Shown here: one piece after another, positions 1,691 to 46,326 of the stretch
How the letters are laid out: the number at the start of each line of letters is the position of its first letter
Numbering within the stretch: the first letter of the stretch is position 1
Virus record (IMG/VR): IMGVR_UViG_3300025151_006410
Coordinates: 1 to 64,000 of that record
Length of the DNA stretch: 64,000 bases
Source: a virus
Reading direction: 5' to 3' (one strand)
Notes under the pieces: model-generated
Seen by the model: only the letters and a program-made list of their open reading frames with translations
Told to the model about the DNA's origin: nothing
Databases searched by the model: none
Position numbers and translations under genes: made by a program

Positions 1691-3145
1691 ATGATTATTT
1701 GGGGAGTATCAGCACTATTTCATGACGCCGGCCTTAGTGTGATCAAAGATGGCAAAATTGTCTTTGGTGCTCATGCTGAAAGATATTCTGGAATTAAACA
1801 CGATAAGCATTTAAATCAGCAAATAATTGACGAAGCCCTCACGTATGGCACGCCTGATAAGATTGCTTGGTATGAAAAACCTTATAAGAAAAATTTGAGA
1901 AAAATACAAACAGGTGAATGGTGGTACACAGGCTTTAATACATCACCCAAAAAATATTTGAAACAATTTGGAATCAAAGGGCCAAAAGTTATCACATTCG
2001 ATCACCATTATTCACATGCGGCCGCAGGTGCTTTTACAAGTCCACTAAGACATGGCACTGTGGTTGTGTTAGATGCTATTGGAGAGTTTGTTACAAGTTC
2101 TGTTTGGAAATATACCAATGGTAGCAAATTGGAAAAACTGTATGATAGCAAGTACCCTAGTTCATTTGGTTTGTTGTATTCAGCATTTACCCAACGTTGT
2201 GGCTTGAAACCAATGGATGAAGAATATATTACTATGGGCATGGCGGCCTGGGGGAAACCAATATATGCAAAAAAAATTAAAAAAGATTTTATCAAAAGTT
2301 ACTATCCATTTGCACTAAAGAAAAATGTCCACAAAGGCATAGGTGATTATTTGCCCAAGGCAGATGTAATGGATATTGCGGCAAGTATTCAGCAAGTAGC
2401 AGAAGAATTTATTTCTCATTACTGTGCAAAAGCAATAGAGCAAGTTGGTATTGATGATTTAATTTACCAAGGAGGAGTTGCATTGAATTGTGTGGCCAAT
2501 TCTAATTTATACCAAAATGCACATTCAGTATGGATTATGCCCAACCCAGGAGACTGTGGATCTAGCTTAGGATCTGCACTTGCAATGCACGGAAAACAGG
2601 TGGTTTTTCCTGGGGCTTACATTGGAACTAATATTGATCTTCCATACCCTGTAGACGCAATTATAAGCGAATTAGACGCCAAAAAGATAGTAGGTGTAGC
2701 GTCTGGACGAGCTGAATTTGGACCTAGAGCTTTAGGGCATAGATCATTGTTAGCTGACCCCCGCGGAAGCGAGATCAAGGACAAAGTAAATGAAATAAAG
2801 CGCCGACAAAAGTTTCGACCATTTGCTCCTGCGATATTGAAAGAACATGTGAATGAATATTTTGATATTTGCACTGACGATTCACCATACATGCAATTTG
2901 TTGGCATTTGTAAAAAACCAAAAGAGTTTCCTGCTATCATTCATGTAGATGGTACGTCAAGAGTACAGACAGTTGGTCCGGACGATTCGCCTGGTTTTAG
3001 AGCACTGCTAGAAAAATGGTATGCAAAAACAGGTTGCCCAATGTTGCTAAACACATCGCTTAACATCAGAGGCGAACCAATGGTTAATAACAGAGCAGAC
3101 GCAGATAGATTTGAGGAGAAGTACGGCATCAAGGTTTGTTCATAA
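1691..3145 (+). CDS. Carbamoyltransferase (NodU/CmcH/TobZ family)
   Basis: A 484-residue O-carbamoyltransferase. The Kae1/YrdC-like ATPase-fold N-terminus (WGVSALFHDAGLSVI, then FDHHYSHAAAGAF with the metal-binding His residues) and the C-terminal domain (GPRALGHRSLLADPR, RPFAPAIL, TSLNIRGEPMVN) are both present. The family transfers a carbamoyl group from carbamoyl phosphate, via carbamoyl-AMP, to hydroxyls on sugars or antibiotics. It is somewhat shorter than NodU-type enzymes. Homologues are frequent in T4-like marine phages. The neighbouring radical SAM, aminotransferase and epimerase genes suggest glycan or virion-surface decoration. The stop TAA overlaps the next ATG as TAATG. Confidence 0.88.
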   Translation: MIIWGVSALFHDAGLSVIKDGKIVFGAHAERYSGIKHDKHLNQQIIDEALTYGTPDKIAWYEKPYKKNLRKIQTGEWWYTGFNTSPKKYLKQFGIKGPKVITFDHHYSHAAAGAFTSPLRHGTVVVLDAIGEFVTSSVWKYTNGSKLEKLYDSKYPSSFGLLYSAFTQRCGLKPMDEEYITMGMAAWGKPIYAKKIKKDFIKSYYPFALKKNVHKGIGDYLPKADVMDIAASIQQVAEEFISHYCAKAIEQVGIDDLIYQGGVALNCVANSNLYQNAHSVWIMPNPGDCGSSLGSALAMHGKQVVFPGAYIGTNIDLPYPVDAIISELDAKKIVGVASGRAEFGPRALGHRSLLADPRGSEIKDKVNEIKRRQKFRPFAPAILKEHVNEYFDICTDDSPYMQFVGICKKPKEFPAIIHVDGTSRVQTVGPDDSPGFRALLEKWYAKTGCPMLLNTSLNIRGEPMVNNRADADRFEEKYGIKVCS

Positions 3146-15456: not shown

Positions 15457-15617
15457 TAAACATCCCATCCATATTTTGGCTTGTATTTCTTTTTTGCATA
15501 CTGTTTCAATCTAGTTCCAGCTTTTTTATATGATTTCATTGCTCTATTGTCTTCTGCTTTTTGCTTTTTTGCATTTGCTTTGATAAGTTTATCAGCTTTT
15601 CCTTTAAGCCCTAACAT
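15456..15617 (-). CDS. 53-residue Lys-rich protein
   Basis: A short ORF locked between neighbours by two TAATG overlaps: its ATG overlaps the queE stop and its own stop overlaps the next ATG. The product is Lys/Ala-rich and helical, ending YKPKYGWDV. The double overlap is strong evidence that it is translated. Function unknown. Confidence 0.6.
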   Translation of the reverse strand: MLGLKGKADKLIKANAKKQKAEDNRAMKSYKKAGTRLKQYAKKKYKPKYGWDV

Positions 15618-16513
15618 TATGTTCCTATTGCATTGCCAAACAGATACACATGTACTCTTGCCGCCACATTGTAACCTCTTCTAAATGCTTTTCTTGCCAC
15701 TTCTCCTGCTGTGTCAGATTGTTCTTCTTCTCTCGCACCCACAGGCATTATCCACACAGGATAGTCAACGCCAGCATCTCTAAATTTTTTCACAGTCATT
15801 TCTAGTTCTTCCCACTGTTCATCTTTGTGGCCAACAACAAATTTTAATTGTCCTTTTTTGGATAGCTCATAATATTCTGCAACATTATCAGGCTTGATAG
15901 CTTTTTCAGTTTTTTCTCCTGCCACTGTCCACAGTTTAGGACTAACACTAAAAAATACTTCTGTGTTATGACTGCTTACCCAATCTTTAAAGTCTGGTCT
16001 CAGTATTTGTGTTCCGTTAGTTTCAAACGTCATCGATTCAGGCAAATTGTTTTGACGTTTGAGCTCGTCATATATTCCAACCACTGCTTGTTGTCCTGTA
16101 ACCATTAATGGTTCTCCACCAGTAAAACACAAATGTTGTTTTTGTTTAGATGTTGGATGCAAAAATAAACCATCCGGATTATCATCTGTTCTTAAACAAT
16201 CAATCAGTTTGTGTGCTAACACAGTAGGGGTTTCTTGCCCCATTAAATGTTTATATTTTTTAGACCATGTGTAAGATGAATCACACCCTTTGTCCCAAAC
16301 TGGTAAATCTTCGACTCGTTTTACTTGTGATACATCATATGATGCATATGGTAATTCCCATGATGATGGATCAGTTGGATTCAGTTGTCCAAATCCATCA
16401 CATTGTAAATTACATAAAAAGAATCTTAGCCATGCAGTTGGAACGCCAGTATAGTGGCCTTCTCCTTGTATAGAATAAAATATTTCTGAATAATAGTATT
16501 TTTTCTCAACCAT
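15617..16513 (-). CDS. queE: 7-carboxy-7-deazaguanine synthase (QueE), split cysteine motif
   Basis: Radical SAM enzyme that converts 6-carboxytetrahydropterin to 7-carboxy-7-deazaguanine, the core step in preQ0-type base synthesis. Visible are EIFYSIQGEGHYTGVPTAW (QueE N-terminus), CNLQC (C34, C38), CDSSYTW (C77) and CFTGGEPLM (SAM-binding GGE). In ordinary QueE the third cluster cysteine follows the second by two residues (CDTxYTW); here 38 residues separate C38 and C77, an insertion inside the cluster loop. 298 residues versus about 220-240 usual. Part of the dpdA operon, next to PRTase and GMP reductase genes. Confidence 0.88.
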   Translation of the reverse strand: MVEKKYYYSEIFYSIQGEGHYTGVPTAWLRFFLCNLQCDGFGQLNPTDPSSWELPYASYDVSQVKRVEDLPVWDKGCDSSYTWSKKYKHLMGQETPTVLAHKLIDCLRTDDNPDGLFLHPTSKQKQHLCFTGGEPLMVTGQQAVVGIYDELKRQNNLPESMTFETNGTQILRPDFKDWVSSHNTEVFFSVSPKLWTVAGEKTEKAIKPDNVAEYYELSKKGQLKFVVGHKDEQWEELEMTVKKFRDAGVDYPVWIMPVGAREEEQSDTAGEVARKAFRRGYNVAARVHVYLFGNAIGT

Positions 16514-16529
16514 GTGCTATTAGTATATA

Positions 16530-17000
16530 CTATTTAGAAGATTTGTCTACTTCCCATGGATACACAATCCAACTTGGATCTTTGGATTTATCTATAGTTA
16601 CAGCAGAATAATCAACGTCAAAACTTGATGGTATATTATCATGTATTACAGCAAAATCAACATCGTTATCATGTTTAGTAAACTGTTCTTTTAGATATTC
16701 AAACGTTTTACCAGTATCATTAATGTCGTCGACACACAGGTACTTCATTGGTTTTAGATTCAGTTGTGAAGGCAAAATTTTTGTTTTAACATCTGCATGA
16801 TCTCTAAATGAACACTTTACACTATACAATGGTATTTTCATTTTATGTGAAAGTATTACAGCAGGAATGAGACCTCCACGTTCTACACCTATAATTGCAT
16901 CATAATCATATGGCATTGATTCACATTGTATTGATATATCGTTAGTCCAGTCGTGTACTTGTTCCCAAGTAATGTAGATTTTATTTGGTGTATTGTTCAT
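16530..17000 (-). CDS. Purine-type phosphoribosyltransferase
   Basis: A 156-residue type I phosphoribosyltransferase. The PRPP-binding motif is YLCVDDINDTGKTF (88-100), and an upstream IIGVERGGLIPAVIL is typical of xanthine-guanine/hypoxanthine PRTases. It would make GMP, XMP or IMP from free base and PRPP. It overlaps the start-proximal end of guaC by 20 bp, so the two are probably co-translated, linking purine salvage to the deazaguanine pathway. Base specificity cannot be told. Confidence 0.82.
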   Translation of the reverse strand: MNNTPNKIYITWEQVHDWTNDISIQCESMPYDYDAIIGVERGGLIPAVILSHKMKIPLYSVKCSFRDHADVKTKILPSQLNLKPMKYLCVDDINDTGKTFEYLKEQFTKHDNDVDFAVIHDNIPSSFDVDYSAVTIDKSKDPSWIVYPWEVDKSSK

Positions 17001-18030
17001 AAGCCCTATTGATTACATTGTTTGTTCGTATAAATGTTGCACACTTGGCCATGTCCTTTAATCTTTTTGCACCTATATAGGTACAAGCACTTCTCACACC
17101 ACCTAGTATGTCTTGTATTGTTGGTTCGACAGGACCTCTATCTGGCAAAGATATCAATCTTCCTTCGTTACCACGGTATCCACCTTTTGATTTGTTATGC
17201 ACTTCTCTTGCACGATCCGAACTCATGCCGTAAAATTCTCTTTTTCCATCTACAGCTTTAATTCCTGATTCATCATGCCCAGCCAACATTCCGCCTATCA
17301 TAACCATATGAGCTCCACCGCCCAATGCCTTTGCTATATCTCCAGGATGTACACAGCCACCGTCTGCCATGATATGTCCACCTACTCCATTAGCCGCATC
17401 TGAACATTCTACTATTGCAGAAAACTGCGGAACACCTACACCAGTCATTGTTCTTGTTGTACACACAGAACCTGGCCCTATACCTACTTTGACAATGTCT
17501 GCACCATTTAATATTAATTCTTCTGTCATTTCACCAGTTACAACATTTCCAGTCACAATTACTTTGTCAGGATATTCATTTCTTACCATTTTTACAAAAT
17601 CGACCATGTGTTGATGATATGCATTAGCAACATCAATAGTGATCATTTTAATATCAGGAAAACTTTTGAGAACTGCTTGCATAGTTTTGTAATCTTCAGC
17701 TTCAGCATCAAATACTCTTTTAGTACCAGTACACACTGATACACTTTGTAATCTTAAACCATCACCCACAGCCTGTTTCCATTGATCAATAGTGGTAGTT
17801 TTTGTAATCACAGTCATCATTTTATATTTTTGCAACACTTTTGCCATTTGAAATGTGCCTACCCCATCCATGTTACTTGCGAATATAGGACAAAAATCTA
17901 AAACTTTGTTTGAATTGCGGAAAGAAAACTTGCGTGTCATTTCCACGTCTGCTCTTGATGTTAGCGTGCTTCGTTTTGGCTGTAATAAAACATCCTCAAA
18001 ATTTAATTTTATTTCTTGACTAATTCTCAT
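16981..18030 (-). CDS. guaC: GMP reductase
   Basis: A 349-residue IMPDH/GMPR-family barrel, matching the E. coli GuaC length (about 347). Signatures seen are LNFEDVLLQPKRSTL, the NAD(P)H/phosphate loop VGIGPGSVCTTR with catalytic Cys190, MADGGCVHPGDIAKALGGGA, and the GMPR-type flap RGPVEPTIQDILGGVRSACTY. There is no CBS insert, which favours GMP reductase over IMP dehydrogenase. The reaction is GMP + NADPH to IMP + NH3. A purine-converting enzyme in a deazaguanine operon is unusual: it may steer guanine nucleotides, or shift G toward A in an AT-rich phage. Confidence 0.92.
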   Translation of the reverse strand: MRISQEIKLNFEDVLLQPKRSTLTSRADVEMTRKFSFRNSNKVLDFCPIFASNMDGVGTFQMAKVLQKYKMMTVITKTTTIDQWKQAVGDGLRLQSVSVCTGTKRVFDAEAEDYKTMQAVLKSFPDIKMITIDVANAYHQHMVDFVKMVRNEYPDKVIVTGNVVTGEMTEELILNGADIVKVGIGPGSVCTTRTMTGVGVPQFSAIVECSDAANGVGGHIMADGGCVHPGDIAKALGGGAHMVMIGGMLAGHDESGIKAVDGKREFYGMSSDRAREVHNKSKGGYRGNEGRLISLPDRGPVEPTIQDILGGVRSACTYIGAKRLKDMAKCATFIRTNNVINRAYEQYTK

Positions 18031-18033
18031 ATT

Positions 18034-18381
18034 TTATTCTTTTTCTTCCTTTTCACGTTGTTCACACATATGTTTAACCATACAATATTTTTCCCATATG
18101 TCCTGTAGTGCTGGATATTTTTTTCTTAATTTTACATGTGGCCATTCTTCGCCTTCCCATGCAAACTCATCTGCCATATGCACAGTATATCCCGAAGAAG
18201 CTGTGTCAAAAACTTCTGGTGCTAAATTTACAGTTGTTGTACCATCTAGATCTGTTTGCCATTCTAATCCTTTTAGATCCATCTGTTCTGCCCATTCAGT
18301 TTCGTTTTCTTCCTGTGTTTGTCCTTGCCTCGGCTTTGGCTGTGGCTGACGCAAAGTTAATGTATATTCACCTTTGGGCAC
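18034..18381 (-). CDS. Unknown acidic protein in deazaguanine operon
   Basis: A 115-residue protein with a Pro/Gln-rich linker near the N-terminus and an acidic, aromatic body (ADEFAWEGEEWPHVKLRKKYPAL). No domain recognised. It sits between folE (adjacent, 1-base overlap) and guaC (3 bases apart), so it is certainly co-transcribed with the pathway. Confidence 0.55.
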   Translation of the reverse strand: MPKGEYTLTLRQPQPKPRQGQTQEENETEWAEQMDLKGLEWQTDLDGTTTVNLAPEVFDTASSGYTVHMADEFAWEGEEWPHVKLRKKYPALQDIWEKYCMVKHMCEQREKEEKE

Positions 18382-19058
18382 TAAGCATGGCCTTTCATAG
18401 ACAAACAGATATCATAAAATTCTTGTTTAAGTGCAGGGTCTTCACCAAACCCGCCTAACATTACTGCTGTAGTCATATCTGATTCATGTTCACGTACACC
18501 TCTGTGTGTCATGCAATGATGTTCTGCTTTTACTACCACTGCCACATGTGGAGTCTTTGCAAACTTTACTAATTCATCAGCAATGTGTGTAGTCATTTCT
18601 TCTTGTATTTGTGGACGTTCTGCTATATGATGCACAATTCTATTGAACTTGCTCAAACCAATTACTTCATCCTCTGGAATAATACCTATCCATGCTTTGC
18701 CTACAATGTTTTGAAAATGATGGGCACAAGTTGATCTGATTGATATTGGACCTGATGTGTATAAACTTTTGTATCCCATGTTTGGAAAAGCAGTTATCTT
18801 TGGTTGTTTTTTAAATCTACCACCAAAAATTTCTTGCACATACATTTTTGCCACTCTTCTTGCTGTGTCTTGTGTGTTGTGATCGTTTTCTGTATCAATC
18901 ACAAGACTGTCTAACACATTTTGGAATTTTTCTTCAACTTCTTGTTGCAGTTTTTCTAAGTCACCTTCATACATGAACTCAGAAATGTTATCGTTGGAAT
19001 GAAACCTTCGACCAACACTTTGTATTCTACTTTTGATTATTTCACTAATCTTTTCCAT
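18381..19058 (-). CDS. folE: GTP cyclohydrolase I (FolE)
   Basis: A 225-residue GTP cyclohydrolase I, which opens GTP to 7,8-dihydroneopterin triphosphate, the first step toward 7-deazaguanines. The zinc and catalytic residues are present: STCAHHF (C111, H113, H114) and HCMTHRGV (C182, H185). ARRVAKMY and LGLSK-like IGLSKFNRIV motifs are typical. A GGAGA ribosome-binding site precedes the ATG. First of the three pathway enzymes encoded here (folE, queD-like, queE). Confidence 0.93.
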   Translation of the reverse strand: MEKISEIIKSRIQSVGRRFHSNDNISEFMYEGDLEKLQQEVEEKFQNVLDSLVIDTENDHNTQDTARRVAKMYVQEIFGGRFKKQPKITAFPNMGYKSLYTSGPISIRSTCAHHFQNIVGKAWIGIIPEDEVIGLSKFNRIVHHIAERPQIQEEMTTHIADELVKFAKTPHVAVVVKAEHHCMTHRGVREHESDMTTAVMLGGFGEDPALKQEFYDICLSMKGHA

Positions 19059-19098
19059 ATAGTTTCTCCGATGTTGAGGCAGTGGATTGCCATTGTTA

Positions 19099-20169
19099 TC
19101 ATTTTAGTATACTTTCTAGGATTGCTTTATACAAGTTATTTCCGTGGAAAAATTTTTCATCTAGTGTTTTTTTCTGTTTGTGCATTGGTGTGATGTATGT
19201 GTGATAGTTTTCCATATAGTCTACAATCTTTTCTATTATTTTTGGCTTATATTGTTGATAGGATGTTTGGCTTTTGGTCCACACACTTGGATACTTAAAT
19301 GTATTATCAAACATTTCAAAATAAGATAATCTGTCTGGAACCATTGGAATAGTTTCCAATATTAATCCTTCATAGCCAGATATGCCTAATGTTTCTTGTA
19401 AGTTTGCACTGAATATAAGTTTTGCTTCAGCCAACAAGTTATGATAATCATTTTTGCTCAACTGTTTTTCTTGGCAAACTACAAATTCATATTGTGGCAA
19501 CGCATCTTTTAGATCATAAAATATTTCAGGCTGTTTTTCTGGCGCAAGTCTGTGCGGAAACAATATGAGATTGCGTTTGGTTGTGTTTTTATAGCTTTCG
19601 AGATCTGAATCCATATACTCCATTGGCCATCCTGTTTGGATTGTCTTTGGTTCTTTGTGTAATAAAGTCTCAGGATATAATGCTTCATACAACAGTTTGA
19701 TATGAAAGTCTGTTGCAAAAAAATTATTATCATAGCATTCAAACATTGAACGTTCAGCATTGCGTACCCAGTTCGCACTACCAATTAGTCTACCCAAAAA
19801 GTCCGCAGGATCATAAGAGCCAGCGTGCCATAATCCGCCAATTTTAATATCTACGCCTAACAGCTTGGACATGTATTTTAATTGTATAACAGTTGGGTTC
19901 CATGCGTCAGTGTATAAAAAATAATCTCCATTTTTTATTTGGCCACTGCAAAACATTTCGCCTATTTGTTCTAATTGTTTTGACTTGTAAACATTAGTCC
20001 CGCCAAAGTTTAAAAAAGCACCCGGAGTTGTTGCCTGCGGAGTATCGCCACCAGATACAGTGATTACTTTTTTTCCAGTGTGTTTTTCAAGCTGTTTTGG
20101 CAAATGCTTTTTCCACTGTGCTGTATAGCGTGTTTCTACTGCTTCTATGTCAACAAGGTAAATGGTCAT
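19099..20169 (-). CDS. Glycosyltransferase (GT4/GT-B-like) inside the DNA-modification operon
   Basis: A 356-residue GT-B-type glycosyltransferase. The C-terminal half has FPHRLAPEKQPEIFYDL (donor phosphate-binding loop), FSANLQETLGISGYEGL (the E-x7-E-like acidic motif region) and VPDRLSYFEMF. The N-terminal half is an alpha/beta acceptor domain. It overlaps its upstream neighbour by 4 bp and lies between queD-like and folE, so it may act on the product of this pathway, for example glycosylating a modified base as T4 glucosyltransferases do. That role is inference; a surface-sugar role is also possible. Confidence 0.72.
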   Translation of the reverse strand: MTIYLVDIEAVETRYTAQWKKHLPKQLEKHTGKKVITVSGGDTPQATTPGAFLNFGGTNVYKSKQLEQIGEMFCSGQIKNGDYFLYTDAWNPTVIQLKYMSKLLGVDIKIGGLWHAGSYDPADFLGRLIGSANWVRNAERSMFECYDNNFFATDFHIKLLYEALYPETLLHKEPKTIQTGWPMEYMDSDLESYKNTTKRNLILFPHRLAPEKQPEIFYDLKDALPQYEFVVCQEKQLSKNDYHNLLAEAKLIFSANLQETLGISGYEGLILETIPMVPDRLSYFEMFDNTFKYPSVWTKSQTSYQQYKPKIIEKIVDYMENYHTYITPMHKQKKTLDEKFFHGNNLYKAILESILK

Positions 20170-20468
20170 ATGCTTTTGTGTATTGAATCCTCTACTAATT
20201 TAAATTTCATTGCTAGATAAGTTTTAATTTTTTGATCTTTACATGAAAACACAACTTCGTCACAGCCTGAATCTTCATAGAAAAAATCTTCTCCGTACTT
20301 GTATCCTTTTTGTCCTAGATCGTTTGATACAATGCACCCTGCATCGAAATCAGTATAGTTGCCATTCAAGGCTCCTCCTTCAACAGGATAATAAGATGCT
20401 CTATCAGTGGTGCTTTTTGAATCTATTATCACAGTGTGTTTAAATTTATAAGGCCCTGGATTCGACAT
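20166..20468 (-). CDS. Unknown protein in deazaguanine operon
   Basis: A 100-residue protein, TAATG-coupled to queD-like upstream and ATGA-coupled to the glycosyltransferase downstream. Beta-rich sequence (KHTVIIDSKSTTDRASYYP; FDAGCIVSNDLGQKGYKYG) with three cysteines. No homologue recognised. Its position makes it a candidate accessory protein of the pathway. Confidence 0.5.
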   Translation of the reverse strand: MSNPGPYKFKHTVIIDSKSTTDRASYYPVEGGALNGNYTDFDAGCIVSNDLGQKGYKYGEDFFYEDSGCDEVVFSCKDQKIKTYLAMKFKLVEDSIHKSI

Positions 20469-20830
20469 TAATTAAGTGCTTTCTTTTCATATGTACACAA
20501 ACTACCATTTTCACCATCTTCTGATACTTCAATAGTGATACTGCGATTTGGATATTTGTTTTGTATTTCTTTTGCTAAATCATCTGATATCATTTCACAC
20601 GATTTATAATCTAATTCAAGTGTGCCTTCATACAATCCTTCCATCCATCTTTTGAATTGTATAAATTCAATATCTCTATCATCATGATATACTTCAATCA
20701 TAACTTTGAAATGGAAAATGTGTCTGTGTGGGTATCCTAAAAAACTTACATCTTCTAGTTTAGGATCCTGCAGTGCGGCTGGATATTTGTGAATACCTTC
20801 TTTGCGAAAAGTTACCCAAATGTTTTTCAT
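20468..20830 (-). CDS. queD: QueD/PTPS-like T-fold protein, catalytic Cys not apparent
   Basis: A 120-residue protein with the 6-pyruvoyltetrahydropterin synthase layout: a first zinc His (H14 in EGIHKYP), the HxH pair (H35, H37 in YPHRHIFHF) and a late acidic motif (IEVSEDGENG) where the family has its substrate-binding Glu. QueD makes 6-carboxytetrahydropterin from dihydroneopterin triphosphate. The usual catalytic cysteine a few residues before HxH is missing (VSFLGYPH). Its neighbours folE and queE support the role; the missing Cys leaves a changed mechanism or reaction possible. Confidence 0.65.
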   Translation of the reverse strand: MKNIWVTFRKEGIHKYPAALQDPKLEDVSFLGYPHRHIFHFKVMIEVYHDDRDIEFIQFKRWMEGLYEGTLELDYKSCEMISDDLAKEIQNKYPNRSITIEVSEDGENGSLCTYEKKALN

Positions 20831-21336
20831 AGTGTTTCATCCTTTGTATATTCATTCCATTCTGTAAAATGTTCATCAGTAATCAAATCTCTCACTGACC
20901 AACACCATACACCTGGATTGGTTGCTTTAAAATCTTTGTCATCAATTTTCAATACAATATTACCACGCATGTTCATAATGTTTTCTACTGGCAATGCATA
21001 TACTATTGTAAATTTTTTATTTGTCAAGCATTCTTCGAAGTGTGAAGCATTACTTACTCTTGTGTCAACTGTAACGTAATAATCTAATTTAAGCAGTTTG
21101 TCGATGGTATTAAGTAAAGGTTGGCTTTGTTCATACTCAATGTGTTTGAGTGAATGATTTGCACCTAAATAAATGTGTTTACAGTTATGTTGTATTGCTA
21201 GTTCTTTAATTTTTTCCACCGCCTGATATCCAACCACAAACAAAGTTTTCAACCCGTATGTTGGTGTTTTTTCAACTTCTGTACCAGTAAAGAAAACTAC
21301 GTTATCTTTTACTCCATCTGTATAATCACGTTTCAT
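20827..21336 (-). CDS. Conserved phage protein tied to dpdA/queD, unknown function
   Basis: A 169-residue protein beginning MKRDYTDGVKDNVVFFTGTEVE and containing YGLKTLFVVGYQAVEKI, HIYLGANHSL, YYVTVDTRVSN and NPGVWCWSVRDL. I recognise closely similar proteins next to queD in marine T4-like phages, but no function. Alternating strands and helices suggest an alpha/beta domain, perhaps TIM-barrel-like or QueE-associated. Overlaps queD-like by 4 bp and the coiled-coil gene by 11 bp. Confidence 0.65.
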   Translation of the reverse strand: MKRDYTDGVKDNVVFFTGTEVEKTPTYGLKTLFVVGYQAVEKIKELAIQHNCKHIYLGANHSLKHIEYEQSQPLLNTIDKLLKLDYYVTVDTRVSNASHFEECLTNKKFTIVYALPVENIMNMRGNIVLKIDDKDFKATNPGVWCWSVRDLITDEHFTEWNEYTKDETL

Positions 21337-21538
21337 CTTGCTCTAACCATTTTTCTATTTCTTCATACTCCTCATGAGTAAGCATTTCTTTCATTCTTAA
21401 TTTTATTTTTTTCATTTCTATCAGTTCTGCTTTGTGGTCAAATGATCTGGTAAGTTCACGCTGTGATTCCATTTGTTTTACACGTTTTTTAAGTTTTTTC
21501 AGCTCTTGCTTGAATTCTAACAATTTGTCGTCAGTCAT
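21326..21538 (-). CDS. Small coiled-coil protein
   Basis: A 70-residue, almost entirely helical, charged protein (KQELKKLKKRVKQMESQ; MLTHEEYEEIEKWL). Directly follows dpdA-like with a good GGAGG ribosome-binding site. Possibly a partner subunit; no family recognised. Confidence 0.55.
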   Translation of the reverse strand: MTDDKLLEFKQELKKLKKRVKQMESQRELTRSFDHKAELIEMKKIKLRMKEMLTHEEYEEIEKWLEQDET

Positions 21539-22996
21539 TTACACCTCCTCAAATAGATCAGTAAATTTTGTTTGTGCATTAACAATTCTTTTGCCAGTGT
21601 TGCCTCTTGTACCAATAATGCTATCCCAATATTTAGAATATTCATTTATTACTGCATTGGCTACATCTCTATCGTCAGTGGCAAATATTGCTTCTACTAT
21701 ATCTCTGAACATAATACGATCAAAGGTTTCATTAATTAACATAGCAGGAATCTTACCTTTTTCATATTGCCTGTTTGCTTCTTGTACTGCGTTTATGTGC
21801 ATCCAAACATTGTGCCCCATCATAATTGCATATGAAAAAGAATCCCATGATGTCTTTCCTTCTTTACCAACTTTATTTAGATCACCCGGTGCGTAAATGC
21901 AAATATCTTTTGCAGTAAGATCTTTTGTAATTGGTGAATCTAAGAAACTTACATGCTTGCCTTCTCTTACAAATGCTTCAGCAAATCTTGTACCATCATT
22001 TGCAAAAGATTTGTTATCAATTGACGGCACCATTCTATACACCCATTTGTGTCTATCTTCAGTTTCTAGTTCGCAATAAATCTGTCCATTTGCTGTGGCA
22101 AGGAATGGCGATGCACAATCAAATGTGATTGTAAAATTAGGATTATGATATTTTCTTACTGCTCGTTGTATATCTGTCAGCAGTGTTGCCCATTCAAGTT
22201 TTGATGTTCCTAAAAAGTGCATGAAATCATGCAAGCCTTTTTCTAACAATCCATCAAATCTTAGTGCAACTAATCTTTTCAACACAAGATGTATGTCACA
22301 CATGTTTTGCCCACCCATTGACCAACCGTTAAAGTGTGTGCTAGGATATTGTTTAGGATCACAATATTTTTTCATACGTTCGTACCAATCATCTGCATCC
22401 GTGTGATTTTCGCCTTGAAGCACATTTAAAAATTTACAACTGCCATTCCTGTTCTTCATAAAATATTCATTGTTGATTTCAGTGGCTTTACAGGCTTCTT
22501 CATAGGTCGATATGCCAGTTGCTTGTTGGCCTTTAGGAGAACGAGCCACCCAAGCAGGAATGTCAAGTATCATGCCATAGTCCATCAGTGCATCCATCCA
22601 TTTCAAAACAAGTTCACGTTTTTTTGATGCTTTAGGACAGTTAGGATCTTTCCAATCACCTTCCCACACACCTTTTCCTATTTGGAAGCCGCCTGAATCT
22701 CCTAGCGTCCAAGACGTTGACTTGTCGCGTTGGCGGAACATATCTTCTTTTGGTGAATCTTTAGTTAAATCTAGTTCAGCGTGTCCTGCCGAATACAAAC
22801 ACCACTTATAATTAAACTGTGCTTTTGGATTAAGAAAGTTAAGACTTTCTACACCGTTGACAAAGTTTTTTGGAATACGATTATTATCTACGTATTCCTC
22901 TCTTCTTTGTTTACCAACAAATGTCGCATAGAATCCACTAACTGCTGGAAGGAATACAGCATAATCTTTTTGTTCAGCAGTTAGATCTACGTTCAT
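21539..22996 (-). CDS. dpdA: DpdA-like DNA-guanine transglycosylase (TGT family)
   Basis: A 485-residue tRNA-guanine-transglycosylase-like protein. It keeps the TGT signatures in order: GDSGGFQIGKG (nucleophile/base pocket, D100-Q105), FLNVLQGENHTDADDWYERM (the VQGG-type loop), WSMGGQN (the GLAIGG-like loop) and FLGTSKLEWATLL. It is longer than bacterial Tgt and lacks an obvious zinc site, as for phage DpdA proteins that swap guanine in DNA for a 7-deazaguanine. Neighbouring folE, queD-like and queE genes strongly support that role. TAATG-coupled to clamp gene 45. Confidence 0.82.
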   Translation of the reverse strand: MNVDLTAEQKDYAVFLPAVSGFYATFVGKQRREEYVDNNRIPKNFVNGVESLNFLNPKAQFNYKWCLYSAGHAELDLTKDSPKEDMFRQRDKSTSWTLGDSGGFQIGKGVWEGDWKDPNCPKASKKRELVLKWMDALMDYGMILDIPAWVARSPKGQQATGISTYEEACKATEINNEYFMKNRNGSCKFLNVLQGENHTDADDWYERMKKYCDPKQYPSTHFNGWSMGGQNMCDIHLVLKRLVALRFDGLLEKGLHDFMHFLGTSKLEWATLLTDIQRAVRKYHNPNFTITFDCASPFLATANGQIYCELETEDRHKWVYRMVPSIDNKSFANDGTRFAEAFVREGKHVSFLDSPITKDLTAKDICIYAPGDLNKVGKEGKTSWDSFSYAIMMGHNVWMHINAVQEANRQYEKGKIPAMLINETFDRIMFRDIVEAIFATDDRDVANAVINEYSKYWDSIIGTRGNTGKRIVNAQTKFTDLFEEV

Positions 22997-23733
22997 TATT
23001 TTGTTTGTGCTGGTAAGATATATTGATATTTTCCTATGCCAGAATCAAGTGTGATTTGTGCCGCTCCATCATCTGAGAAAGACATTTCACATTCATTAGA
23101 TTCTGCTAGTTTTAGAATTTGTGTTACTTGTGCAACTGGCCATGACCAAGATTTAGACAATGCTCCTTCAATCCCTTTAACAAAAGTAAACTCGCCTGCA
23201 TGTGATGATGCATCACCAAATTTAAATTTTAGCTCGTCACCATCTGTACTAACTGTAAACACTTGTTCTTCTAGGTTGGCTTGTGCCTGTTGATTCAATC
23301 TAAGTATATCTGGCATGGTTGGCTTTATATTGACGTGCCAATTAACACCACGAAACTTTACTGACTTTAGTTTTTCATTTACAATTTCAGAATTCATAAA
23401 TCTATAATCATTTTTAAAATCTTTTCTTGCATTTTCAAAATGCAAACCAGTTGGCACTACTTCATTGTTACGTTCCTGTGTATTCACTGATATGTTAGCA
23501 CTATCTTTGTATTCAGGAAGTTTAAGCAGTATGTCTAGCTTGCCTAAATTAGGCATTCCAAATGTGCCTTTCATTTCCGGCACTGGGTTTTTGAATTCAG
23601 CTTTTACAACAACTGACTTATCTTCTGCCATAGCATCCATAGTAGTTGCTGTTTCGTCGCCAACAATTTTTACTAGTTCAATAAATCCTAGCGAATGCGT
23701 ATGTTGTACGACATCTTGTAATATATCTTTCAT
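22996..23733 (-). CDS. 45: Sliding clamp (gp45-like)
   Basis: A 245-residue T4 gp45-type processivity clamp (T4 gp45 is 228). The protein is acidic with repeated beta-rich half-domains (VVKAEFKNPVPEMKGTFGM; LDILLKLPEYKD; QVTQILKLAE; GKYQYILPA), typical of this family. The clamp tethers polymerase and, in T4, activates late transcription via gp55/gp33. It heads the dpdA-queE operon, so the modification genes are expressed together with replication. AAGGAG ribosome-binding site. Confidence 0.88.
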   Translation of the reverse strand: MKDILQDVVQHTHSLGFIELVKIVGDETATTMDAMAEDKSVVVKAEFKNPVPEMKGTFGMPNLGKLDILLKLPEYKDSANISVNTQERNNEVVPTGLHFENARKDFKNDYRFMNSEIVNEKLKSVKFRGVNWHVNIKPTMPDILRLNQQAQANLEEQVFTVSTDGDELKFKFGDASSHAGEFTFVKGIEGALSKSWSWPVAQVTQILKLAESNECEMSFSDDGAAQITLDSGIGKYQYILPAQTK

Positions 23734-23754: not shown

Positions 23755-23783
23755 ATTATAATTGTAATTAGGTTAAAAGTCAA
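23755..23783 (-). promoter_or_regulatory. Sigma70-type promoter for the clamp/DNA-modification operon
   Basis: Minus strand TTGACT (23778-23783), 17 bp spacer, TATAAT (23755-23760), then AAGGAG and the ATG at 23733. The -35 overlaps the 3' end of the methyltransferase gene. Confidence 0.8.
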
Positions 23784-44109: not shown

Positions 44110-46326
44110 CTATCCGTTGATTGTAAATTCTTTTGTTTTCTGATCATATGTAACTGTTACAGATGATTTTTTAATATCTTGGAACAATAGTTGTTTACTC
44201 AGAGGTAATTTAATTCTGTTTGTAATTACTCTTTGCAATGGTCTTGCTCCCATTTTGGTGTCAAACCCTTCTTCGATCAGCTGTTCTTTTGCACTCTTGT
44301 CTAGTTTTAGTTTGACTTTTTTGTCAGCTAGTTGATCGTTCAATTGACTAATAAATTTGTCTACAATGTTTTTCATAACTTTTTTGTCTAATGATTTGAA
44401 TCTCAGCACACCATCTAGTCTGTTTCTGAACTCTGGCGAAAAGAAATTTTTAATATCAACTTCGCCGTCATGTGTTTGCCCATCAACAAAGCCTAGTGTA
44501 TTAGCCTGCATATCTTCAGCACCTAAGTTAGATGTCATTAATAATATTGCATTACCGAGTCTTACTTTTTTGCCATTAGATGATGTTATTACTGCATCAT
44601 CCATAGCTTGTAAAAGTATTGTCATCACATCCCTATGTGCTTTTTCAACCTCATCAAACAATATTACTGAGTTAGGGTGTTTTTCTAATTCATTTATAAG
44701 TTGTCCAGAACCAGTGTTTCCATCATCATACCCAACATACCCTGGAGGTGCTCCGATTAACTTTGCTACAGAATGTTTTTCTTGATATTCACTCATATCA
44801 AATTTGACAAGTGGAATACCCATTCCTTCAGCTAATTTACGGGCTGTTTCAGTTTTCCCACAACCAGTAGGTCCTACACACAAAAATGATCCAATTGGTT
44901 TGTTTTCTTGTTTCAGTCCAGCTTGTGCTACCAACACAGTATCAACTAATTTTTCAATAACTTCGTCTTGCCCAAATACTTGCTGTTTAATTGTTTTATC
45001 AAGATTTTCTAAAGACTGTGTTTTTGTTTGCACTATTGAATCAAAACTAACACCTGATATTTTTGCAACTTGTTCTTGTATATCTGTCATCTCTACGTCT
45101 TTAAATGCATCAAATATTTTTGCTTTTGAACAAGCTCTATCTAATACATCAATTGCTTTGTCTGGCAACTGTCTGTCAGTAATATATTTTACAGATAAGT
45201 CAACAGATCCTGCCACCGCATCGTCGGAGATTTGAACATTATGATATGCTTCAAACTGAGTTTTCAATCCTGCCATAATTTGTTTTGCGTGTTCTATGCT
45301 AGGCTCTTCTATGTTTACTTTTCCAAATCTACGCATTAAAGCACGATCTTTTTCAAAGTGCTTTCTATATTCTTCCCATGTTGTTGAAGCAATAACTTTA
45401 AGGTCACCTCTAGCTAGGGAAGGTTTTAAAAGGTTTGCAAGATCAACACCGCCTTGGCCACCTGATCCTGCACCGTGCATCATGTGTGCTTCGTCGATAA
45501 ACATGATAGCTTTTTCATGTTTTTCTAGTATCCCTAACAGCACTTTTAACCGTTCTTCGAAATCTCCTCTGTATTTGGAACCAGCTATTAATGACCCCAC
45601 ATCAACAGAATAAATTGTGTGATCTTTTATCACATCAGGAACTTTGTTTGCAACAATCATATGTGCTAGTCCTTCAGCAATAGCTGTTTTTCCGACACCT
45701 GGATCGCCTATCATGATTACGTTGTTTTTTACTTTACGTCCTAATACCAAAGTGATCTCATCAACAACATCTTGCCTTCCTATGCAAGTAAATGTTTTGT
45801 TGTTTTTTGCCTGTTCATTCAAATTAACTGTGTATTGACTTAATATTTTTGAAGCTTGCTTAGAACTTACTTTTGCTTCTTCGAGATCTTCTATCCCATA
45901 TTCTACTGTGTAGTCAACCACCGCTTTTTTTGTTATATTGTTTTTCAGCAGATAATAAACTGCATGAGAATTTTTTTCGCCATACATTGAACTTAAAATA
46001 TGGAAACAATTAACATGCTCGTGACCTGTGAAAATAGCCTGTGTAAATGCCCTATTCACGCAACGATCTGTGCTCTGTGTTCTTTTAGGATACACATCCT
46101 CTTTTGTTTTAATTTCATTTAGTCTATTTTGCACATAATCATCTAACTCATTAACAAGTGTATCATATTGATGGTTTGGAAAAGTTTTCATCATTTCTGA
46201 TATTTCAGGCTGAGCAACTAAAATTTTCAACAGGTGCTCTAAAGTAATGTATTCATGATGATGTTCTCTAGCCAATTTAACTGCTTCGTCAAAAATACCT
46301 TTAAGTCTATCGTCTGCTTGTATCAT
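44110..46326 (-). CDS. clpA: ClpA-like AAA+ unfoldase with ClpP-binding-type loop
   Basis: A 738-residue two-ATPase Clp protein. N-terminal Clp repeat region (about 1-150), D1 Walker A GDPGVGKT (207-214) and Walker B FIDEAH (277-282), D2 Walker A GPTGCGKT (485-492) and Walker B LFDEVE (556-561). No long middle-domain coiled coil, which favours ClpA over ClpB. Between D2 Walker B and SPEFRNRL lies LGF (611-613), where ClpA/ClpC carry the IGL/IGF/LGF tripeptide that docks on ClpP. This implies use of host ClpP. Overlaps deformylase by 20 bp. Confidence 0.9.
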   Translation of the reverse strand: MIQADDRLKGIFDEAVKLAREHHHEYITLEHLLKILVAQPEISEMMKTFPNHQYDTLVNELDDYVQNRLNEIKTKEDVYPKRTQSTDRCVNRAFTQAIFTGHEHVNCFHILSSMYGEKNSHAVYYLLKNNITKKAVVDYTVEYGIEDLEEAKVSSKQASKILSQYTVNLNEQAKNNKTFTCIGRQDVVDEITLVLGRKVKNNVIMIGDPGVGKTAIAEGLAHMIVANKVPDVIKDHTIYSVDVGSLIAGSKYRGDFEERLKVLLGILEKHEKAIMFIDEAHMMHGAGSGGQGGVDLANLLKPSLARGDLKVIASTTWEEYRKHFEKDRALMRRFGKVNIEEPSIEHAKQIMAGLKTQFEAYHNVQISDDAVAGSVDLSVKYITDRQLPDKAIDVLDRACSKAKIFDAFKDVEMTDIQEQVAKISGVSFDSIVQTKTQSLENLDKTIKQQVFGQDEVIEKLVDTVLVAQAGLKQENKPIGSFLCVGPTGCGKTETARKLAEGMGIPLVKFDMSEYQEKHSVAKLIGAPPGYVGYDDGNTGSGQLINELEKHPNSVILFDEVEKAHRDVMTILLQAMDDAVITSSNGKKVRLGNAILLMTSNLGAEDMQANTLGFVDGQTHDGEVDIKNFFSPEFRNRLDGVLRFKSLDKKVMKNIVDKFISQLNDQLADKKVKLKLDKSAKEQLIEEGFDTKMGARPLQRVITNRIKLPLSKQLLFQDIKKSSVTVTYDQKTKEFTING

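Follow-up and report, generated by a model that had tools for sequence, protein, structure and literature searches.

A widespread phage operon predicted to serve 7-deazaguanine DNA modification and probably yielding a glycosylated, decarboxylated base

The first 64,000 nucleotides of the viral record IMGVR_UViG_3300025151_006410 of IMG/VR (hereafter the window) carry an operon of 12 genes, all on the minus strand between positions 15617 and 23733 and separated by intergenic gaps of -20 to +40 bases. The whole record is a fragment of 69,019 bases with 36% G+C, and its genes for a B-family polymerase, a sliding clamp and a clamp loader mark it as a T4-like phage, a marine virus of bacteria. A preliminary description of this sequence had proposed a complete-looking operon for 7-deazaguanine modification of DNA, fused to the clamp gene, in which folE, queD-like, queE and dpdA-like genes stood together with genes for a glycosyltransferase (GT), a GMP reductase and a phosphoribosyltransferase (PRT). 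All of these genes were found at the positions proposed, on the minus strand and nearly contiguous. Since the order polB, clamp, DpdA, a 169-amino-acid (aa) protein, a 120-aa protein, GT, (PRT), FolE and QueE is shared by 80 related viral contigs, down to DNA polymerase identities of only ~62%, the arrangement is not due to chance. Homology, folds, linkage and an intact DpdA active site agree with the proposed function, and it is very likely that the operon serves 7-deazaguanine DNA modification.

The head of the operon is indeed occupied by the sliding clamp gene (gp45-like, 22996..23733, minus strand), assigned by its match to the family phrog_12062 and placed likewise upstream of DpdA in the marine relatives and in phage PA5oct. 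Its stop codon and the start codon of DpdA overlap as TAATG, so the two genes are coupled; the alleged fusion holds in this sense, but there is no fusion protein. Directly 5' of the clamp gene lies TTGACT-17-TATAAT (23755..23783, minus strand), the site in this region that most resembles a promoter. It was recognised solely by its agreement with the consensus (11/12), and such sites are altogether no more frequent here than in shuffled sequence.

The second gene (21539..22996, minus strand) encodes a 485-aa protein that, judging from alignments (E. coli TGT included) and hhalign comparisons, is with high confidence a divergent DNA guanine transglycosylase of the DpdA type, within the TGT superfamily. 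Taken alone, it was not credibly matched by any family of Pfam, PHROGs or NCBIfam, and its direct comparison with E. coli TGT was weak (E 0.0019). The Pfam model PF01702 (TGT) was uninformative as a direct test, as it misses this protein and the proven DpdA of phage 9g alike. The group to which the protein belongs could nevertheless be aligned with the DpdA2 group of phages nt-1, ACP17 and X1 (hhalign, E 9.6e-7), and tblastn revealed relatives in the PA5oct group, Phosso, Vibrio phage 2.275, PhiXhv, Ep032 and Aura, the homologue in phage 2.275 adjoining QueF, a COG1738 transporter, QueC and FolE. The residues expected of an active enzyme are present, namely the general base D100, D145, Q194-G195, G229-G230, H260-L-G263 and the nucleophile D293. 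In the alignment of divergent relatives, the DSGGFQ motif (D100-SGG), D145, QG, GG, H260-LG and D293 are invariant, and E. coli TGT shares all these motif positions except H260, as well as the FDC...NG surroundings of the nucleophile. The C-terminal zinc motif of TGT (CxCxxC...H) has been lost in the clade of the window protein, in which only the His-Asn region aligns, and is retained in Aura and PhiXhv-16; it was not taken as a defining feature of phage DpdA.

Upstream steps of the pathway are represented by FolE, GTP cyclohydrolase I (18381..19058, minus strand; PF01227 2e-46, 158 bits against a cut-off of 27; NCBIfam FolE 5.5e-51), and by QueE, 7-carboxy-7-deazaguanine synthase (15617..16513, minus strand; phrog_2076 3.6e-52). 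The NCBIfam QueE models matched the latter below their cut-off (3e-10), and the radical SAM cluster cysteines C34, C38 and C77 are in place. Both early assignments proved sound. FolE, QueE and a TGT-like DpdA are shared with the dPreQ0/dG+ phages 9g, nt-1, CAjan and Rosebush (PMC6884629), and in phage 9g the order polB-clamp-dpdA-folE-queD is nearly that of the window; dPreQ0 has been measured in the DNA of Vibrio phage nt-1 (PMC6884629). In contrast to the window, however, these four systems possess canonical QueD and QueC or Gat-QueC and none has been described with a GT, while the marine DpdA proteins form a deep clade of their own without the CxCxxC motif.

The main departure from these systems concerns the 120-aa protein (20468..20830, minus strand), which had been taken for the QueD of the operon. 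It matches neither PF01242, the family of canonical QueD, nor any other Pfam family. An AlphaFold2 model built on 25 diverse homologues reached a pLDDT of 94.6 and found its best PDB match in E. coli QueD (E 3.7e-5, TM 0.69), in line with an hhalign score of 1.9e-6 between its family and canonical phage QueD. Three zinc-binding His residues (H14, H35 and H37) are invariant in the family and the Glu at the substrate position, E79, is kept, while H49, R52, E55 and C78 have become invariant. All members have lost the catalytic Cys of QueD and its Asp-His pair, which canonical phage QueDs retain. Moreover, PA5oct, Phosso, ACP17 and phiST possess both the 120-aa protein and a canonical QueD (PF01242), and an annotated canonical QueD accompanies it in BUCT-ZZ01 and RHph_I1_18. 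Because the catalytic residues are lost and several phages hold a true QueD as well, the 120-aa protein is, from its model, alignments and genomic context, best regarded as a small QueD-fold (PTPS) paralogue, here called sQueD, and not as QueD.

The sQueD protein is encoded by at least 594 viral contigs. Among the 97 loci that were fetched with it, 87 have DpdA, 78 have the GT and none has QueC. Its gene occurs near four DpdA types or subfamilies, which include a DpdA3-like protein in Ahp1, D479, RHph_I1_18, Bakedbeans, phiST and MA9V-3 and, in prophage-like loci of actinobacteria, a DpdA of the actinophage type. Single-protein seeds from the PA5oct DpdA, phiST and D479 brought in no additional viral contigs. 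In L175-L177, two open reading frames (ORFs) within one cluster match the protein. In Magnetospirillum genomes, the loci L146-L149 (e.g. L147:6817-10899) encode the GT, sQueD, DpdA and QueD; genes for a phage-type integrase and a CoiA-like nuclease lie close by, and the loci may constitute an island for DNA modification, either bacterial or belonging to a prophage.

The preliminary description had also noticed that no QueC was visible, and this was confirmed for the whole 69,019-base record, which lacks canonical QueD (PF01242) too; the operon can thus hardly be called complete. As the record is a fragment, these absences by themselves prove little, and the argument stands on complete relatives: neither QueC nor Gat-QueC was found in PA5oct, Phosso, ACP17 or BUCT-ZZ01, and the only QueC match of X1 lies below the cut-off. 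Other candidates were discarded, the weak QueC matches in marine contigs being other PP-loop proteins and that of D479 having a broken SGGxDS motif. One marine relative (L091; G011:34500-38500) encodes a PP-loop ATPase whose zinc tail resembles that of QueC; two radical SAM genes and a gene for a TctA-like transporter flank it, which is not a queuosine context. Of the two options first considered, host QueC or a carboxylated or novel base, the second fits better because the complete relatives are also without QueC. When 16 phage lineages were compared, ten had sQueD without QueC and six had QueC without sQueD (P = 1.2e-4 assuming independent lineages; 5.7e-4 with D479 counted against); QueE was present in all. 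Since sQueD and QueC are mutually exclusive, QueE is always present and four DpdA types are served, we consider it reasonably likely that sQueD acts on 7-carboxy-7-deazaguanine (CDG) in place of QueC, the reaction probably being a decarboxylation.

The second distinctive component is the GT (19099..20169, minus strand), whose model and motifs point to a retaining glycosyltransferase of the GT4 type. The 356-aa protein was modelled with a GT-B fold (pLDDT 82, pTM 0.82), its closest solved folds being BshA (1e-8) and, at a lower level, T4 alpha-glucosyltransferase with DNA (5.7e-5). Both share with it the GT-B fold and the E-x7-E and R..EK motifs, although its sequence identity with BshA is only ~12-15%. 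In the window protein these motifs are E259-x7-E267 and R207..E211-K212; divergent members conserve them, and in proteins of the BUCT-ZZ01 and L139 types the first Glu is replaced by Asp. The GT was detected in 19 of 50,697 phage records, belonging to the PA5oct group, ACP17, X1, Phosso, PhiXhv and Ep032, and every one of the 19 also carries DpdA. A profile search added BUCT-ZZ01, a cyanophage of Synechococcus elongatus PCC 7942, in which two GTs, one of them a classic GT4, surround a DpdA2, and an XGPRT adjoins QueE (L121:5373-9530). In 145/145 loci having both, the GT and sQueD genes lie on the same strand and at most 3.5 kb apart, and they do so in Magnetospirillum too. Such linkage counts are without phylogenetic correction, and those over the full set of 167 related loci are biased, 80 of these having been picked by DpdA. 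The GT is part of the modification module, and it is moderately likely that it glycosylates the modified base. Together with sQueD, it forms a distinctive co-inherited core that the preliminary description had overlooked and that points to a decarboxylated, glycosylated base.

Some clusters have additional genes that may be viewed alongside the GT. In L163 it shares an overlap with a gene for a sugar epimerase, a DegT-type aminotransferase gene is found in other clusters, and in PhiXhv-16 a PIG-L deacetylase and Gat-QueC stand beside it, an association that recalls the BshA-BshB pair. The window also encodes a NodU-like carbamoyltransferase (1691-3145, plus strand; phrog_1601 8.6e-102), 12 kb from the operon. 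As NodU-like enzymes carbamoylate sugars, this one could tailor a DNA-linked sugar; against this speak its distance from the operon and the common occurrence of such enzymes in marine T4-like phages.

Among the remaining genes, the Gpt-like PRT (16530..17000, minus strand) keeps the PRPP loop, with DDINDTG and WIVYPWE conserved, and has Asn in place of the Lys by which Gpt contacts the O6 of 6-oxopurines. Its homologues adjoin QueE in BUCT-ZZ01 and PA5oct, and by analogy with TubE, the CDG-specific PRT of tubercidin synthesis (PMC6112128), it may have a role directed to CDG or deazaguanine. The GMP reductase (16981..18030, minus strand) is of the ordinary GuaC type (NCBIfam PRK05096, 456 bits, cut-off 397) and an optional member, present in 22/167 related loci. 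The 169-aa protein (20827..21336, minus strand) has no recognised fold but is encoded in 139/167 of these loci; among the phages of the collection it is confined to the PA5oct group and ACP17, all of which have the GT. Searches of the PDB with phmmer and hmmsearch gave no useful match for this protein, DpdA or the GT. The operon is completed by a 70-aa ORF (21326..21538) and a 100-aa protein (20166..20468), both restricted to close relatives, and by a 115-aa protein (18034..18381) weakly matching EST35_0319 of PA5oct (1.4e-4), all three on the minus strand. Elsewhere in the window lies a gene for a phage ATP-dependent protease (44110-46326, minus strand; phrog_4871 1e-236).

For the substrates, the decarboxylation, the order of steps, the recycling of guanine, the sugar acceptor and the final base, we infer the following scheme. 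CDG would be produced by FolE and QueE together with a canonical QueD, whose gene would lie in another part of the phage genome or in the host. The CDG would be taken by sQueD instead of QueC and most likely converted to 7-deazaguanine, before or after its insertion. DpdA, its gene coupled to that of the clamp, would exchange guanine in new DNA behind the replication fork for the modified base, and the guanine released would be recycled by the PRT and, where present, by GMP reductase. Finally, the GT would transfer a sugar to this base from a nucleotide donor, and the bulky product would shield the DNA from nucleases and host defences. To this explanation as a whole, in which 7-deazaguanine is inserted in the phage DNA and then receives a sugar, we assign a probability of about 55%. 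Its more specific form, with the sugar perhaps at C7 after removal of the carboxyl by a recruited QueD-fold enzyme, and with the resulting base not only widespread among marine T4-like phages but also present in Pseudomonas jumbo phages and cyanophages, is tentative and falls slightly short of even odds.

The phage phiST offers a partial parallel. As in the window, it has QueE without QueC, and its sQueD homologue adjoins a DpdA3-like protein; unlike the window, it has no match to the GT. The DNA of phiST reportedly contains dDG, and a CDG decarboxylase is said to have been named DpdL, which may be sQueD.

Several points weigh against the proposed scheme. The proposed identity of sQueD with DpdL is a lead only. 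Canonical QueD, which the scheme needs, is missing from the record. Three Streptomyces loci (L154-L156) hold sQueD and QueD but gave no DpdA match, FolE being present in L154 and L155. It follows that sQueD need not serve a DNA pathway; these loci are possibly a 7-deazapurine natural-product cluster. DpdA is equally unmatched in a 277-kb viral contig (L219) that has the GT, sQueD, FolE, PRT and QueE, and in which a valyl-tRNA-synthetase-like ORF, named by eye (L219:4398-5786), occupies the usual place of DpdA between the clamp and sQueD genes. In PhiXhv-16 the GT occurs with Gat-QueC, independently of sQueD. Last, the sugar acceptor on a decarboxylated 7-deazaguanine is chemically not obvious, only C7, C8 or N2 being candidates.

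Of the competing explanations, the one that survives best, though we judge it unlikely, is that the GT is a mere neighbour of the deazaguanine genes and decorates hydroxymethyl-pyrimidines, a virion protein or a host polysaccharide. Phage GTs with such roles exist, T4 alpha-glucosyltransferase itself acting on hydroxymethylcytosine, and genes of the thymidylate-synthase family are present in PA5oct, Phosso and PhiXhv. However, no member of this thymidylate-synthase/hydroxymethylase family (PF00303) was found in ACP17, X1, BUCT-ZZ01 or five large marine contigs, and hydroxymethyl-pyrimidines were judged unlikely as sugar acceptors in these because the synthase family is absent. A TET/JBP search gave no match anywhere, controls included, and so carries no weight. 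The tight linkage of the GT to sQueD and DpdA in unrelated phages also speaks against a fortuitous association.

Somewhat less probable is that the final base is dCDG, possibly bearing the sugar as a glycosyl ester of its carboxylate, and that sQueD binds, activates or channels CDG without decarboxylating it. Without QueC the pathway does stop at CDG, whose carboxylate would be an obvious handle, and BshA, the nearest fold to that of the GT, glycosylates malate, which is a carboxylic acid. Glycosyl esters are labile, however, and phiST, a phage with sQueD and no GT, reportedly contains the decarboxylated dDG. A working QueD is slightly more doubtful still: in that case host QueC would complete preQ0, the DNA would carry dPreQ0 or dADG and the GT would be a hitch-hiker. 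The QueD fold, the position of sQueD as the sole QueD-like protein in the record and the frequent occurrence of QueC in hosts are compatible with it, but not the missing catalytic residues, the phages with both proteins, the exclusion between sQueD and QueC or the way in which the GT tracks DpdA through unrelated phages. Very improbable, finally, is a tubercidin-like route, in which the PRT would make a CDG ribonucleotide, GMP reductase would process it and the polymerase would incorporate the modified nucleotide, for although FolE, QueE, PRT and GMP reductase also stand together in the tubercidin/toyocamycin clusters (PMC6112128) and the guanine-contacting Lys of Gpt is Asn here, those clusters have a UbiD decarboxylase and no transglycosylase, whereas in the operon no UbiD-type decarboxylase was seen, the GMP reductase is ordinary and infrequent, and no nucleotide route is needed where DpdA retains its catalytic residues.

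In summary, the window contains a real and widespread 7-deazaguanine DNA-modification operon, whose end product is probably a glycosylated, decarboxylated base. The literature searched contained no description of glycosylated 7-deazaguanine and, to our knowledge, sugar-coated phage DNA is known only on pyrimidines. The isolates PA5oct/Paride, ACP17, X1 and BUCT-ZZ01 are at hand for study of the cluster. The proposed scheme offers a defined path from CDG to derived bases that needs no QueC, and the analysis gives names to two orphan protein families, those of 120 and 169 aa. If the scheme is true, a deazaguanine bearing a sugar would add a new class to the known DNA hypermodifications and account for the retention of the cluster by hundreds of viral contigs.

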